From positions 1-43,736 of the forward strand of contig NZ_MBKP01000029.1 of assembly GCF_002243045.1 (NCBI RefSeq): 43,736 nucleotides of DNA, given 5' to 3'. The notes below the pieces were generated by a model, which saw only the letters and a list, made by a program, of their open reading frames with translations, had not been told where the DNA came from and did no database searches. The DNA comes from Methanolobus psychrotolerans (lineage in GTDB: Archaea; Halobacteriota; Methanosarcinia; Methanosarcinales; Methanosarcinaceae). Positions 225-43,736 of this stretch are shown here, one piece after another (position 1 is the stretch's first letter; every line of letters begins with the position of its first letter). A program made the translations under genes and the position numbers.

Positions 225-508
225 ATTTTTCTTACAATAGCACGTAGGGATTTGATAGTTAATTGTGGGATTCGAGGAACCCCGTAGTAAACAGTATGCA
301 TGGGGTTGACAACCAGCAGCCACCTGTCGTGTACAGTAAGAACACTAGACCAATAACTACTCCCCAACCATTTTTCCCCAAAACCATAACTACAACTCAA
401 TTTGAAGTTTAGACAATTATTTAATAAGTTAACTTACATTACCATACAATAGCTGACAGACTAGCAGCAATCATAAACTTGAACAGATTAACAATTATGG
501 AGAACTTT
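225..508. other. Intergenic region next to IS66; no gene recognised
   Basis: No supported gene lies between the IS66 end and the lipoprotein gene. A short open frame around 260-410 has no start signal or recognisable similarity. The AT-rich stretch at 415-435 (tttaataagttaac) could hold the promoter of the downstream lipoprotein gene, but I see no clear TATA box at a diagnostic distance. Confidence 0.4.
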
Positions 509-1303
509 ATGAAACGAATTATACTAGTATTCCTTCTGGCACTCGTCATTCTCAGTGCGGGATGTACAGAAGAACAAAATAATACACCGGAGATATCCGA
601 TGACGCTGTCATCACCCTTTTGACATACGGAGCATACTCTCCAGCTGAGATGGCGGTGAGTGAACTTGTTATTAACTCCACCACGGTTAATCTGAGCTAC
701 TACAACTATGAGCATGAACTGACAGCCAGATACATCAAACCAATTGACGAGGAAACTCGCAACAACTTGCTTGACCTACTCAGAAATAATGGTTTTACCG
801 GGATGCAAGAACTCTACGAACCACAGAAAGGCCAGCCACTTGTAGTTGACACCGGAACTGCAGAGATCACAGTGACTCAGGACGGAATGACTAAGACCGT
901 AAAGATCGATCCGTACTTCGATGATTACATGCCTGCCAATCTGCGGGAAATAAATGATGCATTGACCTATCTGAGGAGCTATGCCATGTCAATATCTGAG
1001 GACGAAGCAAAAGTGATTGCTGAGGAGTGGATCATGAATGCTCCCACGTACAGTTTTGATGGCTCGGACCTGACATTTGTAGACTACCATTCCGACACCG
1101 AATATCCTTCACAACATACCCTCACCTACACGTTCACCAGCAGCCACGGAGGTTACGGTGACAGGACAGACCAAATGGTCACCCAGGTCGTAACCAACCA
1201 CACAATAGAGATGACATTATACAACAGTAATGTTGTGTTCGCGATCATCGATGGCATATGGGATGAAAGGGAACAGAACATGCTGGAGTCAGTGAAAGTA
1301 TAA
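509..1303 (+). CDS. Predicted lipoprotein, unknown function
   Basis: The product has a basic N-terminus (MKR), a hydrophobic segment and a lipobox LSAGC, then an Asn/Glu-rich linker, so it is probably exported and anchored by a lipid on the Cys. The rest (about 245 residues) is soluble, with no motif I recognise. It contains a segment with alternating Thr and hydrophobic residues, and near the end 'IEMTLYNSNVVFAIIDGIWDE'-like text typical of small secreted methanogen lipoproteins. I chose ATG 509 over the upstream ATGs (479, 497) because GGAG at 499-502 sits about 6 bases before it and it starts directly with the signal peptide. It lies alone between mobile-element remnants. Function unknown. 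Confidence 0.7.
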   Translation: MKRIILVFLLALVILSAGCTEEQNNTPEISDDAVITLLTYGAYSPAEMAVSELVINSTTVNLSYYNYEHELTARYIKPIDEETRNNLLDLLRNNGFTGMQELYEPQKGQPLVVDTGTAEITVTQDGMTKTVKIDPYFDDYMPANLREINDALTYLRSYAMSISEDEAKVIAEEWIMNAPTYSFDGSDLTFVDYHSDTEYPSQHTLTYTFTSSHGGYGDRTDQMVTQVVTNHTIEMTLYNSNVVFAIIDGIWDEREQNMLESVKV

Positions 1304-1338
1304 ACAGTCTGAGAATACATATAAATTTCTACCTGTAC

Positions 1339-1754
1339 CTCACATTCCGCATGTCAACTTAAAATCTAAACACTTTTAATGTAACCGGTTCATTTCATCC
1401 TCATGATCATCTGAGGGGATGAATCAACCGCATGAAAATAACTACAAGATCACTTGCCCATCTGGTCATGGTACTATGCTTATTCCTTTATTCAATTGCG
1501 CAATGGAAATTGAGGACAAAACTAAAGAAGACAGGATATTTTGTCAAAAACCAGGTAGAAAAACCGGTGCAAAATCCTACGATGAGATGGATTTTCTTCC
1601 TTTTCAGGGGAGGTGCTGAAGTTGAGATTGTGATTGAGGCAGCAGTTGAAACAAAGGTGGCAAATATGAAAGATGAATTATGGCAGATATTGGATCTGAT
1701 GGGAGAGGAATGTAGAAAGTATTATATTTGAGGTGAGACCTGCGGAATGTGAGA
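1339..1754 (+). mobile_element. IS1634-type element remnant with both terminal inverted repeats
   Basis: CTCACATTCCGCATGTC at 1339-1355 and GACCTGCGGAATGTGAG at 1738-1754 form a 17-bp inverted repeat with one mismatch. Between them is only the C-terminal end of an IS1634-like transposase. The arrangement is a roughly 416-bp internal-deletion derivative that keeps both ends, i.e. MITE-like and potentially mobilisable in trans. No flanking target duplication is obvious. Confidence 0.65.
1432..1731 (+). pseudogene. IS1634-family transposase, C-terminal remnant
   Basis: The 99-residue frame resembles the C-terminus of IS1634-family (DUF4277-associated) DDE transposases. It shows a hydrophobic 'VMVLCLFLYSIAQWKLR' helix, then 'FVKNQVEKPVQNPTMRWIFF', and ends in 'ECRKYYI', as family members do. 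About 450 upstream residues with the catalytic acidic residues are missing, so it cannot be active. The ATG at 1432 is probably fortuitous. It lies entirely inside the 17-bp inverted repeats, which supports one deletion event. An overlapping frame from 1419 is a shadow. Confidence 0.7.
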
Positions 1755-1843
1755 TTCATCAAATTGATAATCCCCACAAAGCCATATAGTGACCTATTTT
1801 TATAAACGAAATCCATTCTTGTATCAAAATAGAAGCACATAGC

Positions 1844-2062
1844 ATGAAAATAATGGCATTTAAGGGAAGTCCCTTGAAAAATGAGAATAATGCAACACTT
1901 CGGGAGTACGCGCTTAAAGGAGCAGAGACAGAACTGATCCACCTTGTTGATTATACCCTGACTTCCGCCTTTTTAGGCGCATACGCGTCTCTTGATGTGG
2001 AAATATGTGCTTATATTTTACAACATTATTCCGTTTGGCAAGAAGTAAAAATCAAATTCTAG
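1844..2062 (+). pseudogene. Truncated flavodoxin-like NADPH-dependent FMN reductase / iron-sulfur flavoprotein
   Basis: The first ~40 residues (MKIMAFKGSPLKNENNAT, then LREYALKGAETELIHLVDYTL) match the N-terminus of archaeal iron-sulfur flavoproteins/NADPH-dependent FMN reductases. These have a beta-strand followed by the flavin-phosphate loop GSPxKxxNTATL. After about residue 40 similarity stops: the expected CxxCxxC iron-sulfur segment and the remaining ~150 residues are absent, replaced by unrelated sequence up to the stop. The phosphate loop also has Asn-Ala where Asn-Thr-Ala is usual. A decayed gene beside an IS remnant is the simplest reading. Confidence 0.6.
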
Positions 2063-2223
2063 TGGCGTTTTCTATTTACATCTCCTGCTGATATGCGCTT
2101 AAAACTTGGGAACTCAGGTTATACCGTTATCGAGTAAGCTTGATATAAAGTGCAAAATTCACATCTATACTATTAAAAAATCAAAACCTATCAGATATAG
2201 ACGACAACGATTAAAATACAGAT

Positions 2224-2973
2224 TCATATCTTTGAAAGCGCTTCTGTTTTAGCATCCGTGGCTTCAGGGAAATTTGGTCTTGCTTCAATGGCTTCATCGA
2301 AGGAATCAACAGCTTCTTTGTATCTTCCTAACATAGAAAGCACAACACCCTTAAAATAGCACGCCTGTGAAACGTCCGGTTTTAAGGTCGAACTGCCGGT
2401 CAGTGAGATCCATGTAAAACGAGGGAAATTGAAATAAGCTATATCTGCATGATCCTTGGCTTTATTGAAAAGATCAAGGGATTCACCATACCTTCCAAGA
2501 TGAGCCAGACAACTACCCTTGGAACATAATGCCTCAGTAAATTCCGGATCAATTCCAAGTGCCCTGTCAAAAGATTCCATAGCTTCTTCGTATCTTCCAA
2601 GGTAAAAAAGAGCCATACCCCTGTTGGACCAGTTACGGATATTATCCGGGTATATATCCAAAAATGGATCAATGCATCTGAGAGCATCTTCATAGCTTCC
2701 AAGTCTGAAATACACTAATCCTTTACCAGACATTGCCTCGTATAATCTCCTGTGTGCATCCTGTGCCCTATCGTCAAAATTCCGTTTTGAAAAAAAGTCG
2801 CCGATTTTCTCCCACATGTCAGCTGACCTATCATACAAAATGATAGCTTCATCATATCTTTCCATCTCTACAAGCACATTGGCCTTGCTATTCAATTCAG
2901 AAGCTTCTTTTGCACATTGCTTTACTTTATCCTCTGTAGAGCTCTTACCAAGGACTTTACTAAAAATACCCAT
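2224..2973 (-). CDS. Tetratricopeptide repeat (TPR) protein
   Basis: The 249-residue soluble protein is made of degenerate 34-residue TPR units. They are visible as repeated 'LGRYEEAMESFDRALGIDPEF', 'LGRYGESLDLFNKA', 'LGRYKEAVDSFDEAIEARP' and 'LGSYEDALRCIDPFLDIYPDN' helices, with four to five repeats between about residues 25 and 245. TPR solenoids mediate protein-protein contacts; no catalytic domain is present and the partner is unknown. I chose the ATG at 2973 (MGIFSKVLGK) because the longer frame to 3021 adds a Cys/Met-rich stretch unlike the family. It is monocistronic, followed by the tRNA gene upstream on the same strand. Confidence 0.85.
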   Translation of the reverse strand: MGIFSKVLGKSSTEDKVKQCAKEASELNSKANVLVEMERYDEAIILYDRSADMWEKIGDFFSKRNFDDRAQDAHRRLYEAMSGKGLVYFRLGSYEDALRCIDPFLDIYPDNIRNWSNRGMALFYLGRYEEAMESFDRALGIDPEFTEALCSKGSCLAHLGRYGESLDLFNKAKDHADIAYFNFPRFTWISLTGSSTLKPDVSQACYFKGVVLSMLGRYKEAVDSFDEAIEARPNFPEATDAKTEALSKI

Positions 2974-3122
2974 GCACAAACTATGCTCACATAGAAACAT
3001 ATACCTTTTGCAGGACAACATAGCAAATATCTACATAATATATAATGATCATTTGCTTAATAATCATTCTAAAGAAGGTAACAGATAAAAAAACAAACTC
3101 CGGCTTTATATTTAGAATTAAG

Positions 3123-3194
3123 AGCCTCGAGCGGGATTTGAACCCGCGACCTCGTCCTTACCAAGGACGCGCTATACCCCTAAGCCATCGAGGC
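3123..3194 (-). tRNA. tRNA-Thr (anticodon GGT)
   Basis: The minus strand gives a full cloverleaf of 72 bases. Acceptor arms GCCTCGA/TCGAGGC pair perfectly. The anticodon stem CGTCC/GGACG encloses loop TTGGTAA with GGT at 3160-3162. The T arm carries GGTTCGAATCC, and the D arm has GG in the loop. The discriminator is T and CCA is not encoded, which is common in archaea. No intron is seen. Confidence 0.95.
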
Positions 3195-3270
3195 GCAGAA
3201 TCAGTTATGGGGGTGCTTTCCCTTAATACACAGAATCAATTAATAAGTTTTCGGTTGGAAGACCGGTGAT

Positions 3271-3777
3271 TTATAAGCACCAACGATCATCCACCGGGAA
3301 TTTTTCGTTAATCCACATAAGGACACCATTATGATGGACAATGCGGTAGCTTCGGGAAAGGACTTTTTGTGCTCCAAATAATGGAAAGTCTTCGATGATA
3401 TCAATGCCTTCAAAGTCCCTGCGGGTTTCGATATCGTGATCACGCAGTATCCTGCCAATTGGGATGTCGGCTTTCATCATGTCACAGCGCACGCCCTCAG
3501 GCATCTTTTCAATGGCGGACAGGGACCTTGCATACACGTATGAGACCTCACCTGCAGTGAGAGTGACCACACGCTCATTTATGTCTGCGCCCGGACTGAC
3601 ACTAAAGATCTCTGACATCTGCTCATCAGCCGGAATGATATGCTGATACTCCGTCACAACAGCAGTAGGATGTTTGGTCATGATCTCCAGCAGGAAAGTA
3701 ACCGAACCATCAGTTCCTGCACACACCCTCAGACACGTAGGAATATCAAAGCTCTTCAGTTTTTCAAGAAAATCCAT
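3271..3777 (-). CDS. Chorismate pyruvate-lyase-like protein (UbiC-related, DUF98)
   Basis: The 168-residue protein has the pattern of the archaeal/actinobacterial DUF98 branch of chorismate lyases. An N-terminal 'LRVCAGTDGSVTFLLEI' segment is followed by a central 'ARSLSAIEKMPEGVRCDM...PIGRILRDHDIETRRDF' block and a final 'SRSYRIVHHNGVLMWINEKFP' strand. Such enzymes turn chorismate into 4-hydroxybenzoate and pyruvate. In methanogens 4-hydroxybenzoate is the precursor of the methanopterin aryl group, so a role in tetrahydrosarcinapterin synthesis is the likely job (inference; no other methanopterin gene adjoins it). The length is normal and the protein looks cytoplasmic. Confidence 0.75.
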   Translation of the reverse strand: MDFLEKLKSFDIPTCLRVCAGTDGSVTFLLEIMTKHPTAVVTEYQHIIPADEQMSEIFSVSPGADINERVVTLTAGEVSYVYARSLSAIEKMPEGVRCDMMKADIPIGRILRDHDIETRRDFEGIDIIEDFPLFGAQKVLSRSYRIVHHNGVLMWINEKFPVDDRWCL

Positions 3778-37840: not shown

Positions 37841-38467
37841 ATGATGGACATTGCAATTTATTCACTTGTTGATGATATGGTCAGCAAAGCAGGGACGGAA
37901 GGTGTTGTAGAATATTGGCTTCGTGTAGGTGAAAGTTATGCGGAGAGAATGGGGAAGGAAGCATATGTAGGATGGCCCGCTTTTAATGTGGCAATGAAAG
38001 ATGGGAGAACGTCCCTGACAGTTGAGGGAGATGTAAATGTCCAGACTGACCTTGCTATCACTGACAAAGACGGGGATGTCATTGGATATGTATATGCTTT
38101 AAAAGTATGTCCGATGGCACCTACTATGGGAAGATATATTTCCAGGATAGGACCAATTCCTGATTCTGACACTGATGTTGCAGACAGTTATAACAACCGC
38201 ATTCGGGACTCTGCTGTTTCAAATTATTGCATAACCCACCAGAAATTCAGGGAAGTTGCAGCAAACAATATCACTGTTGCAAAACAGGCACTTGAATGCC
38301 TGCAGCTGGCAAATAAAGGAATGACTGGTGAAGTGAAGATGGTGCCTGATAATCTGTCAAGGATCAATGTTGATGAAAGGCACATTAAAAGTATACTGCG
38401 TAATGCATCCTGTGTTTTTGCTCTCATTGTCAAGGGCAAGAGTGCAGGTGAAGGAATGATTGATTAA
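37841..38467 (+). CDS. Cys/His-conserved protein of unknown family, paralog A
   Basis: The 208-residue cytoplasmic protein is paralogous to the next gene. Both share VCP(M/F)...(R/E)YI-RIG, then A-xx-YN-xx-I-xx-SA, C-xx-HQ-x-(F/Y)R-xx-VA, a 'TG' near 160 and a final (A/N)SC before a hydrophobic strand. Here the conserved residues are Cys90, Cys130, His133 and Cys191. The spacing would suit a metal, heme or redox site; it faintly recalls the ATC-hydrolase-type domains, but I cannot assign a family. It has its own promoter and AGGAG site. Placement right after the receptor-less Che operon makes a sensory role possible. Confidence 0.65.
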   Translation: MMDIAIYSLVDDMVSKAGTEGVVEYWLRVGESYAERMGKEAYVGWPAFNVAMKDGRTSLTVEGDVNVQTDLAITDKDGDVIGYVYALKVCPMAPTMGRYISRIGPIPDSDTDVADSYNNRIRDSAVSNYCITHQKFREVAANNITVAKQALECLQLANKGMTGEVKMVPDNLSRINVDERHIKSILRNASCVFALIVKGKSAGEGMID

Positions 38468-38479
38468 TGGTGTGATTAA

Positions 38480-39085
38480 ATGGCTGAAAATATAGGTTCA
38501 AATCCTTTTGTTGATGTATCAGTGTATCTTTTCTTCGAGGACATTTCTGATAAACAGGGTGTAGAAGGCTTTACCAATTACATGGTCGGGCAGGCAGAGT
38601 CCCTTGCAAAATCTGTGCCTGAAGAAGAATACAAGACCTGGGATGATTTTACAAATGCTGTTGTGAATGGGGAATCTGTTCTTTCATCATTTGAAAGTAT
38701 CGGGCAGATTAGCAAGTATGGTTTTGTAACTAAGGTTTGCCCATTTTCCAAGGCTATCAGAGAGTACATAAAGCGAATAGGCAATTTCAATCCGGTACAT
38801 ATGGAAGCAACCGACCATTATAATCACACCATACAGCCTTCTGCTGCACACAGTGCATGTATGATGCACCAGACATACCGCAAGGAAGTGGCAAAGAGGA
38901 TAAAGATCGGTGGAAAACCTTTACAGTATGCACAGATAGCAGCAAAAGCATACACCGGAAAGATAGCACTACCTCCCGAATCCTGGAAGAAGGTATTACT
39001 GGAAAAGGCAGGTATTTCAGAGACGCAGGGATTCATGGAGATGAGAGAGAATAGCTGCCTTTACCTGCTTTACATTGAAGAGTGA
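38480..39085 (+). CDS. Cys/His-conserved protein of unknown family, paralog B
   Basis: The 201-residue paralog of the preceding gene conserves Cys87, Cys127, His130 and Cys193 at matching positions ('TKVCPFSKAIREYIKRIG', 'HSACMMHQTYRKEVAKRI', 'RENSCLYLLYIEE'). It adds histidines (H107, H113, H116, H124) that paralog A lacks, which would change a metal site. No signal or transmembrane segment is present. It starts 12 bases after paralog A, so the two are co-transcribed and may form a heterodimer (inference). Function unknown. Confidence 0.65.
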   Translation: MAENIGSNPFVDVSVYLFFEDISDKQGVEGFTNYMVGQAESLAKSVPEEEYKTWDDFTNAVVNGESVLSSFESIGQISKYGFVTKVCPFSKAIREYIKRIGNFNPVHMEATDHYNHTIQPSAAHSACMMHQTYRKEVAKRIKIGGKPLQYAQIAAKAYTGKIALPPESWKKVLLEKAGISETQGFMEMRENSCLYLLYIEE

Positions 39086-40912: not shown

Positions 40913-41321
40913 AAACCTGCAATGGCATTGCTAAAACTATGCCATAAAACTCGCAAATCAAAGTACTATGTAATGGACAAGGGATACGATTCGGAATATA
41001 TATATATATTCGCTAACAAGAGAGCAACTAGATGCGATAGCTATGATTCCTTTGAGACAAAGAAAAAGAATCAAAGGTAAGTATCGTAGAAAAATGGTAT
41101 GAGAATTTGATGAAGAATTATATCATAACAGAAATCTGGTTGAAACGATGTTCTCTGTTCTAAAACGAAAATATGGGGAAGAAATCAGAGCTAAAAAGTA
41201 CTGGAATCAAGCAAAAGAGGTTAAATTCAAGTTATTAATCCATAACCTTGACAGATATGTCAAGGTTATATTTATTATTCAAATGAGGATTTCTACAGAG
41301 CCTGCATTTGAATATCATTGA
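40913..41321 (+). pseudogene. IS5-family transposase, C-terminal part, frameshifted
   Basis: Two frames together read as an IS5/ISH-type transposase C-terminus: 'KTRKSKYYVMDKGYDSEYIY' in one, then 'REQLDAIAMIPLRQRKRIKGKYRRKM', stop, '[36 protein letters not shown]' and '[13 protein letters not shown]' in the other. The frame changes at the (AT)n tract at 40995-41009, a likely slippage site. An in-frame TGA at 41100-41102 replaces the usual Arg codon of 'REFDE'. Everything N-terminal is missing. It is dead, and it marks the left side of the archaeocin island. Confidence 0.8.
41242..41269. repeat. Perfect 12-bp inverted repeat
   Basis: ATAACCTTGACA, loop gata, TGTCAAGGTTAT, followed by an AT-rich run. 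It lies in the 3' part of the IS5-type pseudogene and about 55 bases beyond the stop of the convergent CcdA gene, so it may now work as a transcription end for the cassette. Confidence 0.55.
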
Positions 41322-41323
41322 GA

Positions 41324-42346
41324 TTAAGTAAATAATATCCATCCTCCAATGAGTACCAATATTCCACCGCTTATAATTTTAACATATGTTCGATATTCAC
41401 GAATCTGCTTTGATAAAGTATATCCGCCTACCAACCCAACACCAATAAATGGGGTAAGTATGCCGATTGAAAATGTAAATAATAACACGATGTTTCCAAA
41501 TGTTCCCTGATCAACTGTATTATTAAATAATACCAATAACATTGGTAAAGTACATGGAACTTTTACAAAGGAAAACAATATTCCTAATAAAAATAGTCCT
41601 GATATAGTACGTACATATTTTTGAGCTATGTTTTGAAAATATACATCGAAATGAATAGGAGTTTTGATTATTCCGATAAAAGATAATCCAATCCCAATTA
41701 CAATTATTCCGACAATAGATGAAAATATGGTTAAATCTGGAAGTGTTTGTTTAAATATAATCAACATTGTTCCAATTACCATATATGCTACAATCAATCC
41801 GCTTCCAAATATAAGGGCATTAAACATACCACTTCTTGATGATGTGCTTGTGCCTGCAGTAAAACTTAAGATAAATCCAAGTATTGCCATTAAGCATGGT
41901 GACAATCCTGCAAATAATCCAAATGTATAAGCCATGATAATATTCATAGGCTGATCATCATTTTCATGTATAATTGGCATATCGTTATTTTTGTAGATGG
42001 GCATTGAATCATTGTTGAGATGCATATCAATTGCAGATTGTAGCGACTCTTCGGTTATTTCGATACGTGAAATTATAGTATAATTGTTTACTACGATAGC
42101 AGGTACATCATAAAATGAATATTGCTTCCATTCTTCAAACCCAGATACAGTATTGACATTTATCTTTGTAATAGTGATATTATCATTTTGGATTTCAATT
42201 TGATTAATAATTGGTTCAGATAATTGACAATCAGAACATCCAGGTTGATAGAAGTATCGAATTTCAACAGGTTGAGCAGATACACTAAATGTCATTGAAA
42301 ATAGTAAAATTATAGTAATTAACCCAAATAATTTCGCATTTAGCAT
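41324..42346 (-). CDS. Secreted thioredoxin-like domain fused to CcdA/DsbD membrane domain
   Basis: The 340-residue protein has a signal peptide (residues ~1-24, ending SVSA). An extracytoplasmic thioredoxin-like domain follows (~26-112) with active site CSDC at Cys37/Cys40 and the cis-Pro segment 'YDVPAIVV'. A polar linker leads to a CcdA domain with six helices (~135-340). The paired membrane cysteines Cys151 ('GLFAGLSPCLMA') and Cys265 ('VKVPCTLP') carry electrons across the membrane. The layout is a mini-DsbD, for disulfide exchange outside the cell. It ends an operon-like run behind a ten-cysteine secreted peptide precursor, so its likely job is folding that peptide (inference). GGAGAA precedes the ATG. 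Confidence 0.88.
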   Translation of the reverse strand: MLNAKLFGLITIILLFSMTFSVSAQPVEIRYFYQPGCSDCQLSEPIINQIEIQNDNITITKINVNTVSGFEEWKQYSFYDVPAIVVNNYTIISRIEITEESLQSAIDMHLNNDSMPIYKNNDMPIIHENDDQPMNIIMAYTFGLFAGLSPCLMAILGFILSFTAGTSTSSRSGMFNALIFGSGLIVAYMVIGTMLIIFKQTLPDLTIFSSIVGIIVIGIGLSFIGIIKTPIHFDVYFQNIAQKYVRTISGLFLLGILFSFVKVPCTLPMLLVLFNNTVDQGTFGNIVLLFTFSIGILTPFIGVGLVGGYTLSKQIREYRTYVKIISGGILVLIGGWILFT

Positions 42347-42376: not shown

Positions 42377-42580
42377 TTATTGTATTAAGAAAATGTAAAT
42401 TAACCCACCAATTAAGTAAACAAGTGGGTACATTAATGCATTAATCGGGGTTTTGTTTATTTCTCCAAAAGTGTACCATATACCAACATATTTTTTTGGT
42501 TTATATTTCCGAAGATAGAATGGATATTGAGTTAGTAAAATCATTATAAATACGGACAATAGTAAAGAACCAAGCAACAT
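42377..42580 (-). CDS. Small two-helix membrane protein, candidate immunity protein
   Basis: The 67-residue protein has two transmembrane helices (about residues 2-20 and 47-66) joined by a basic loop (RKYKPKKY). No family is recognised. Small basic two-helix membrane proteins beside bacteriocin genes often give immunity, and this one lies between the halocin-like precursor (92 bases downstream of it) and the thioredoxin-CcdA gene (30 bases upstream of it), all on one strand. The role is therefore guessed from position only. A ribosome binding site GGAGAT lies about 8 bases before ATG 42580. Confidence 0.6.
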   Translation of the reverse strand: MLLGSLLLSVFIMILLTQYPFYLRKYKPKKYVGIWYTFGEINKTPINALMYPLVYLIGGLIYIFLIQ

Positions 42581-42672: not shown

Positions 42673-43437
42673 TTAACAATACTGTGAACAGGCAATGTCG
42701 ACAGTGTTATGTGTTCCATATATGCACAATACAATGAATACAGCTCCACATATTGGTCCACATGCAGGAAATGCAGGACCTGTAAATGCTGCACAACCAA
42801 GCGCGCAAGTAGCTATGCCAGTCAATCCACACCCAATACCATAGATATAGTCATACATACTTTTACAGATGTCACAATCCATACTCGTTGACTCCATGGT
42901 TGCATTCAGATTCTTTGAAACAGCCAATTCTCCATTCAGATATAGGTTACCATTCTTGTTCTCAACAATTGTTTTCTTTTCAACACCATTGATGAATTCA
43001 AAAATATCTGCTTTTCCATATCCATCTTTTATTTCAATAACCATGTTACCAACCATGGTTGTTTCTGTATTTGAAATAAATAGAACTTTGGCTGTGTTTT
43101 TAGTATCATCTGATATTGCAGGTATGGTTACAATTGTTGTTTTTGGCGCATCAATAGTCTTTGGTTCTATTGTTTGAACGACCATGTCGCTATATTGTAC
43201 CTCAAATCCCTTGTCTTGGATATCTTTGATCACAGTTCTTGCGTCTTCATCAAGAGTCATATCCAATAACGCGCTTAATTCACCAAGGCTCCCCTCAGTC
43301 TCAATTGTAAAATTTTCTGCAATACCTGCTTCAAGTTCTGACATTGATTTTGGTACACATGCTGATGCTGGAATTGTCAGTGCAATCAATAACATCATGG
43401 TTACAAAAATGGTACCAACTTTAGATTTTATGTTCAT
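42673..43437 (-). CDS. Halocin C8-like archaeocin precursor
   Basis: The 254-residue precursor has a Sec-type signal peptide (MNIKSK..., hydrophobic to about residue 23, ending PASA before Cys27). A hydrophilic middle region follows (~28-180, strand-rich, no cysteine), and then a C-terminal core of about 68 residues. The core has exactly ten cysteines at 188, 191, 203, 211, 215, 226, 230, 238, 250 and 254, among Gly/Ala/Pro-rich hydrophobic stretches ('GIGCGLTGIATCALGC', 'PACGPICGAVFIVLC'), ending CSQYC. Halocin C8 of haloarchaea is likewise released from the C-terminus of a long precursor, has ten cysteines in five disulfides and opens with CxxC; its N-terminal part gives immunity. The precursor here uses Sec, not Tat. 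Confidence 0.82.
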   Translation of the reverse strand: MNIKSKVGTIFVTMMLLIALTIPASACVPKSMSELEAGIAENFTIETEGSLGELSALLDMTLDEDARTVIKDIQDKGFEVQYSDMVVQTIEPKTIDAPKTTIVTIPAISDDTKNTAKVLFISNTETTMVGNMVIEIKDGYGKADIFEFINGVEKKTIVENKNGNLYLNGELAVSKNLNATMESTSMDCDICKSMYDYIYGIGCGLTGIATCALGCAAFTGPAFPACGPICGAVFIVLCIYGTHNTVDIACSQYC

Positions 43438-43490
43438 TCTTTGTTTACCTCGTTTAACTATTCAAGAGGCAAGGTTACCCAAACTTTAAA

Positions 43491-43501: not shown

Positions 43502-43506
43502 CAAAC

Positions 43507-43736
43507 GTAACTATTCAGCCTAGCTCCCTTCCACCAAGCTGATTTCTCTCTCTACGATCAATTCTGCAATATTGGAATAAGTGAACCCTCATAGAATATT
43601 GCATTAATTGAGTCTATAACAGACATGGAATTCTTGCTAACAGTAGAAACGTATCCTCTTATCCGGCAGAAATTTCTCGCACCTTGTTCACTACGGAAGG
43701 TACCGGATATCTTCTGTTGTACTTTCGTCATTCTGA
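43507..43736 (-). mobile_element. IS66-family element, transposase 3' end (partial, runs off right edge)
   Basis: The inverted repeat GTAACTATTCAGCC plus a diverging tail to 43532 (CCTTCC shared with the other end) marks the outer end. The transposase stop is 26 bases inside it. The element is oriented so that transcription runs out of it into the archaeocin gene. The eight bases outside this end (aagcaaac) differ from those outside the left-edge end (atttttct), so the two ends do not share a target duplication. Confidence 0.82.
43558..43736 (-). CDS. IS66-family transposase, C-terminal fragment
   Basis: On the minus strand the frame reads 'RMTKVQQKISGTFRSEQGA', then 'RNFCRIRGYVSTVSKNSMSV' and 'IDSINAIFYEGSLIPILQN' to a TGA at 43558-43560. 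'KISGxFRSxxGAxxFCRIRGYxSTxxKNxxxVxDSIxxxF' is the diagnostic C-terminus of IS66 transposases. The rest of the gene is beyond the right edge. No defect is visible in this part. Confidence 0.88.
   Translation of the reverse strand, partial: RMTKVQQKISGTFRSEQGARNFCRIRGYVSTVSKNSMSVIDSINAIFYEGSLIPILQN

Follow-up and report, generated by a model that had tools for sequence, protein, structure and literature searches.

Does the cysteine-rich reading frame near the end of a Methanolobus psychrotolerans contig encode an archaeocin of the halocin C8 kind, and do the genes next to it belong to the same system? Only halocins and sulfolobicins are named as described archaeocins in the introduction of a 2023 paper (PMC10105419), and a 2025 paper remarks that landmark genes are too scarce for finding the antibacterial weapons of archaea through guilt by association (PMC12352652). 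We analysed the stretch of 43,736 nucleotides that makes up the whole of contig C51 (the window; genome total 3.16 Mb) and compared its terminal cassette with loci from other genomes, designated below by L numbers. New here are the make-up of the cassette, the association of the precursors with a clade of CcdA proteins, the combination of one leader and promoter with several cores, and the mirror spacing of the cysteines. The following features were assigned:

42673..43437, minus strand: archaeocin-like precursor, 254 aa, ATG start (ORF, domain hits, homologues, profile-profile comparison)
43360..43437, minus strand: signal peptide, residues 1-26, ending P-A-S-A before C27
42877..43359, minus strand: propeptide/carrier domain, residues 27-187 (predicted helix-loop-helix plus beta strands)
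42676..42876, minus strand: ten-Cys core peptide, residues 188-254, 67 aa (Cys spacing 3,12,8,4|11|4,8,12,4)
42377..42580, minus strand: membrane protein of 67 aa (two hydrophobic segments), candidate for the immunity function
41324..42346, minus strand: secreted thioredoxin domain fused to a CcdA/DsbD_2 transmembrane domain, Trx-CcdA (domain hits, clade profile)
43459..43490, minus strand: promoter/leader 32-mer with the TATA-like TTTAAA and the 5'UTR start (genome word count)
43448..43471, minus strand: 5'UTR stem, CCTC pairing with GAGG of the likely Shine-Dalgarno sequence
43506..43736, minus strand: 3' fragment of an IS66-type transposase at the contig end, directly next to the promoter (homologues)

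Precursor gene and cassette

The precursor signal is hydrophobic and of the Sec type, ending PASA|C27, and no RR of a twin-arginine motif was detected within residues 1-26. Residues 28-187 are free of Cys, C27 being the only one outside the core, and the core has exactly ten, with CDIC at its start and CSQYC at its end. The archaeocin-like layout described previously (Sec signal, Cys-free middle region, ten-Cys C-terminus with CxxC and CxxxC ends) was thus confirmed, except that the core has 67 residues and not about 68. C27 and the P..A-C motif (P23, A26, C27) are invariant among the 21 precursors compared, so that a lipoprotein-type anchor through C27 is possible. The propeptide model has a pLDDT of about 75-90 across residues 41-160, with a helix-loop-helix at residues 50-75, and the AlphaFold2 model of the core (pLDDT 79) has four helices and makes its turn where the mirror axis lies. 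Full-length homologues of the precursor, including one with 37% identity in a Methanosarcinaceae MAG, together with the mirror-symmetric Cys spacing and the conserved cassette with its conserved promoter, argue that the ORF does not occur by chance.

The gene order precursor, 67-aa membrane protein, Trx-CcdA was also detected in L006/L043. The GC content of the cassette locus is 32% vs 40% (about 4.5 sd), and further cassette genes may be missing, because the contig stops 300 bp upstream. Downstream of the cassette, at 40922-41321 of the window, short ORFs resemble decayed IS transposase pieces, and a tandem pair of paralogous-looking ORFs (208 and 201 aa) is located at 37841-39085; neither region gave a Pfam match.

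Relationship to halocin C8

The NCBIfam model of the halocin C8 domain, TIGR04449, aligned to the C-terminal domain of the precursor from end to end (residues 188-253 vs model positions 1-68 of 69) with 14.6 bits (E 0.051), below the curated cut-off of 24 bits; the HMM comparison proposed in the preliminary description thus gave an end-to-end alignment at a sub-threshold score. Profile-profile comparison was performed with a window-type profile built from the window precursor and L006. The whole profile matched the methanogen precursors with E 2.8e-22 and the haloarchaeal and related precursors with E 7.6e-10, and the core-only comparison gave E 1.3e-7 and 5.6e-7, respectively, the best of 20 column shuffles being 0.011. 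For the N-terminal part the match was significant to the methanogen precursors (E 8.9e-13) and short of significance to the haloarchaeal ones (E 0.033), and the methanogen and haloarchaeal N-terminal parts matched each other with E 4.2e-6. These results by part suggest a divergent relative of halocin C8 that is linked to it via methanogen intermediates. By sequence comparison the window precursor is therefore a divergent halocin C8 relative, although the curated threshold places it outside the family, and the kinship claimed earlier is upheld by the end-to-end match and the significant profile-profile comparisons. A tblastn search of plasmids detected a Natrinema protein of the same layout, a distant halocin-like match from haloarchaea and the only one among the plasmids.

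Like halocin C8 (ProC8/HalI; TIGR04449, NF040679), the window protein is a long, apparently exported precursor with a C-terminal, Gly/Ala-rich core of ten Cys, which begins with CxxC and has Cys as its last residue, and the propeptide pattern is related via the methanogen intermediates. It differs in its Sec-type signal, ProC8 carrying a Tat export signal (PMC11509114), in the core, where two canonical Cys are gone and another pair is gained, and in the cassette, which adds a Trx-CcdA of its own together with a small membrane protein. At the loci examined that are haloarchaeal or otherwise not of the methanogen type, no copy of either was detected within 1.5 kb. TIGR04450 (Gpos_C8_like, a Gram-positive immunity/bacteriocin fusion) covers the propeptide end and most of the window core (residues 132-238; 23.3 bits, E 4e-5), but the leader part lies outside the match and the score is below the cut-off of 27.

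Among PDB sequences the search detected no relative of the precursor and none of halocin C8, so the Foldseek comparison of the precursor and core models with PDB and viral models, in which nothing was significant, is uninformative. A virus-borne toxin is unsupported, as the viral contigs gave no relative of the precursor or of CcdA.

Predicted disulfide architecture of the core

Relative to the ten canonical halocin C8 positions, the window core is missing C3 and C8 and has gained one extra pair, and its Cys spacing is mirror-symmetric. The spacing is of the same kind in L006 (3,4,8,8,4|7|4,8,8,4,4) and in L087 (4,4,8,4,4|13|4,4,8,4,4). Random Cys placement would yield such symmetry with P of about 6e-4 for the window, 3e-4 for L006 and 3e-6 to 3e-4 for L087, and shuffling the same spacings yields it at about 0.01 to 0.02.

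Comparison of 50 halocin C8-like cores showed that the canonical Cys vary in pairs: C3+C8 are lost in the window and L029, C4+C7 in L023, L017, L145 and L139, and C5+C6 in L030 and L038, the exceptions being one single loss (C6 in L027) and the degenerate L034. For the subgroup with 12 Cys (L030 and L038 among its members), C4 and C5 were positioned by hand, since the automatic alignment shifts them. Were the seven double losses random pairs, all of them would fall on mirror positions with a probability of 2e-7; counting just four as independent gives 1.5e-4. The preliminary description had held that Cys positions not conserved among homologues would speak against the assignment; taken literally they are not conserved, yet this is misleading, because they change in mirror pairs. 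In the haloarchaeal cores of L128 and L135, each of the two terminal Cys is doubled (ICC...WCC), so that one more pair has been gained jointly.

Steps of 4 and 8 between Cys suit helix turns, and with the mirror spacing and the structure model we infer that the halocin C8-like core is a helical hairpin zipped by nested disulfides, with the predicted pairs C188-C254, C191-C250, C203-C238, C211-C230 and C215-C226. Such a hairpin may resemble saposin-like and alpha-hairpinin peptides; Foldseek gave no match. The ladder model is confined to the halocin C8-like and C21-type cores, because mirror symmetry does not hold in the other core types.

A clade of thioredoxin-CcdA proteins adjoining the precursors

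In the three Trx-CcdA proteins compared, the thioredoxin CxxC (C37xxC40) and C151 and C265 of the CcdA domain are invariant. The CcdA profile search detected paralogues in 172 of the 186 genomes, and the scores leave a gap between the full-length archaeocin-clade members (>230 bits) and the housekeeping copies (<140 bits). The housekeeping thioredoxin-CcdA (DsbD_2) proteins of Methanosarcinales have the same domain order, but do not adjoin a Cys-rich precursor. The window protein scored 617 bits on the clade profile, being itself one seed of the model, and its precursor lies 327 bp upstream.

As a precursor we counted any ORF with a signal sequence and 8 or more Cys in its final 90 residues, on the same strand and upstream of CcdA. 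Such an ORF was detected at 18 of 27 clade loci and at none of 24 control loci; these counts are the safer statement, since the corresponding Fisher p of 1.7e-7 is optimistic because related strains are included. Under the strict test, 6-9 of the 27 clade loci have no upstream precursor. At two further clade loci (L093, L099) the precursor has a mis-set start, and at L094 it is located downstream. The window Trx-CcdA thus belongs to a distinct clade that adjoins secreted precursors of 8-14 Cys.

Neighbours that recur at the archaeocin loci L088-L113 and are absent from the controls include a LolA-like lipoprotein (13 loci), a membrane-anchored winged-helix regulator (11), a DUF3108-like lipoprotein (11), a 216-aa multi-helix membrane protein (10) and a Yip1-domain protein (6).

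One leader with several cores

The precursors form one similarity cluster (25 loci vs 0 of 22 control loci) with cores of different Cys spacing. L088b and L048 share 65% identity over 167 aa of leader and propeptide, yet their core spacings differ. Besides the halocin C8-like class, we distinguished the class 4,4,8,4,4|13|4,4,8,4,4 (L087, L095, L097b, L100), the class 9,2,7,8,3,7,9,6,12 (L088a, L092), the class 3,11,4,12,3,10,2,3,2,8,7 (L094, L097a, L110, with L096, L106b and L089 as probable relatives) and the class 4,2,7,7,4,3,9,3,3,7,4 (L088b). The cores scanned outside the halocin C8-like class gave no Pfam or NCBIfam match above cut-off. One leader and promoter/5'-UTR is therefore combined with several unrelated-looking Cys cores, mostly of no known family. 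A profile covering all precursor types matched in 44 of the order's 186 genomes, and many of the weaker matches were confined to the leader.

The genome of the window has a second cassette (L087) on contig C21, with the precursor at 2966-3604 and CcdA at 466-1443; within 466-3604 of that contig, a 12-Cys precursor of perfectly palindromic spacing is accompanied by a membrane protein of 66 aa, a lipoprotein-like protein of 392 aa and the clade CcdA.

Promoter and 5'UTR

The 110 bp upstream of the precursors are conserved across those with differing cores. This region has a TATA-like TTTAAA at about -50 and, at nearly all precursor loci, an operator-like palindrome GCC-N4/5-GGC at about -80 to -93. 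The 5'UTR sequence TGCCTC(TT) pairs with (AA)GAGG of the likely Shine-Dalgarno sequence, and the stem is present in most of 20 relatives, with a summed length of 102 vs a maximum of 87 in 500 shuffles (folding z -1.4 to -2.5). Across the genome the 32-base promoter/UTR word has exactly two occurrences, one ahead of the window precursor and one ahead of the C21 precursor.

In the window, the IS66 fragment stands where other loci have the GCC-N4-GGC palindrome, and a 96.5% identical copy of the fragment was detected at the end of contig C21. The edge between IS66 and the promoter may be genuine, or the assembly may have ended there at a repeat. The short IS66 end itself had no Pfam match and was assigned through longer homologues that Pfam calls IS66.

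Candidate immunity

Relatives of the 67-aa membrane protein were found in only 8 of the 186 genomes: four lie beside a window-type precursor, which is broken in two cases (L007, L009), two lie beside another core type (L097, L098), and two are in Methanolobus genomes (L167, L168) with no precursor nearby. Retention beside broken or missing toxins is the pattern expected of an immunity gene, and it suggests that the 67-aa protein is an immunity candidate at least as good as the N-terminal part of the precursor. A HalI-like immunity role of the propeptide is also possible, because a helix-loop-helix is predicted in it and that of HalI is reported to be essential for immunity in the title of Mei et al. 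2008, which PMC11509114 cites. At L167 (4395-6700) and L168 (4549-6693) the orphan 67-aa protein is encoded directly behind an ABC-2 permease and ATPase.

Proposed function and alternatives

The likely product of the locus is, in our view, a halocin C8-like archaeocin stapled by disulfides, with putative killing activity and with genes for its maturation and immunity encoded alongside. The precursor, which has the signal sequence, would be exported through Sec, its N-terminal part perhaps staying tethered to the membrane through the invariant C27, and cleavage would release the last 67 residues. The core would then fold to a helical hairpin with five nested disulfides, while Trx-CcdA could pass electrons over the membrane for making, reshuffling or proofreading these bonds outside the anaerobic cell. 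The freed hydrophobic hairpin may attack the membranes of related archaea, and the producer would be protected by the 67-aa membrane protein and/or the propeptide. Across Methanosarcinales, the common leader, promoter and CcdA would serve different Cys cores in the manner of polymorphic toxins.

Alternatively, the core could be a metal- or redox-active secreted peptide (a metal scavenger or redox mediator), the thiols of which are kept reduced by Trx-CcdA, with no role in antagonism. CcdA/DsbD and thioredoxin systems also work in cytochrome/haem and metal handling, where these domains are frequent, and at least ten Cys per core, an anaerobic host and a LolA-like lipoprotein at many loci would be consistent with such a peptide. 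We regard it as unlikely, since helix-spaced mirror Cys and their pairwise loss suit structural disulfides rather than metal clusters, the precursor is homologous to that of halocin C8, fast core exchange and patchy presence are typical of conflict genes, and orphan copies of the small membrane protein occur beside an ABC-2 exporter. Even less probable is a signalling pheromone or sibling-control peptide, with the leader, promoter and membrane partners forming a sensing circuit: the common promoter, the operator-like palindrome, the 5'UTR stem across the ribosome-binding site and the recurrent membrane-anchored winged-helix regulators could all belong to such a circuit, but signals are usually conserved among receiver strains and these cores are strongly divergent, the kinship is to halocin C8, and a toxin is equally expected to be regulated.

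We give as little weight to the idea that the locus is a decayed, non-functional remnant, in which IS66 has disrupted the promoter region of a gene that is in the course of being lost. The IS66 fragment abuts the promoter, the operator-like palindrome of other loci is missing in the window, and the relatives L007 and L009 are broken; against this, the frames of precursor, membrane protein and CcdA are intact with the catalytic Cys present, the TATA-like box and the UTR stem are exactly kept, and the junction is perhaps an assembly end at a repeat.

The archaeocin interpretation can be extended, with somewhat less confidence than for the locus itself, to the order. On balance we favour a polymorphic peptide-toxin system in Methanosarcinales, in which one leader/propeptide, a promoter with a 5'UTR switch and a dedicated Trx-CcdA would serve many interchangeable disulfide-rich cores, including the nested ladders of the halocin C8-like kind and cores of no known relative, and the CcdA clade would be a landmark for finding archaeocins independently of core homology. 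Polymorphic toxin systems of bacteria and archaea likewise have a conserved N-terminal module, swappable C-terminal toxic ends and adjoining immunity genes; the present system differs in having short disulfide-rich peptides and a common thiol-disulfide enzyme, not enzymatic toxin domains.

Distribution and significance

Scores of TIGR04449 above the cut-off were obtained in 9 of the order's 186 genomes, Methanolobus vulcani PL 12/M among them, in 25 of 393 genomes sampled across the phylum, other archaeal families included, and in 42 of 391 genomes sampled from the class to which G363 belongs (here treated as the haloarchaea). The suggestion that methanogens would be a new producer group is therefore not sustained, because the model is above cut-off in other Methanosarcinaceae as well as in other families. 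The Methanosarcinaceae precursors (M. vulcani L044/L107; Methanosarcina L106, L105, L103) share the leader, the propeptide, an 8-12-Cys core and the CcdA clade with the window, but they keep the canonical C3/C8 rung or have lost another pair, and most are without the small membrane protein (A2-type) of the window cassette. A full-text literature search on halocin C8 with methanogens, thioredoxin or DsbD returned nothing on point, and earlier comparative work may already list methanogen loci.

Methanogens, which are key to the carbon cycle, are probably armed with a varied family of peptides, and if so they hold a diverse arsenal for which the CcdA clade and the common promoter would provide the landmarks that searches for archaeal weapons call for. 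The nested-disulfide prediction would offer a structure of halocin C8-like peptides that can be tested, and the cassette would exemplify how strict anaerobes make secreted peptides with many disulfides by means of a redox enzyme dedicated to them.

One MAG contig labelled candidate division WOR-3 bacterium (L048, JAGLZA010000417.1) encodes a 12-Cys halocin C8-like precursor with 27.5 bits, above the cut-off, together with the clade CcdA and a leader of the Methanosarcinales type, suggesting either transfer or mis-binning.
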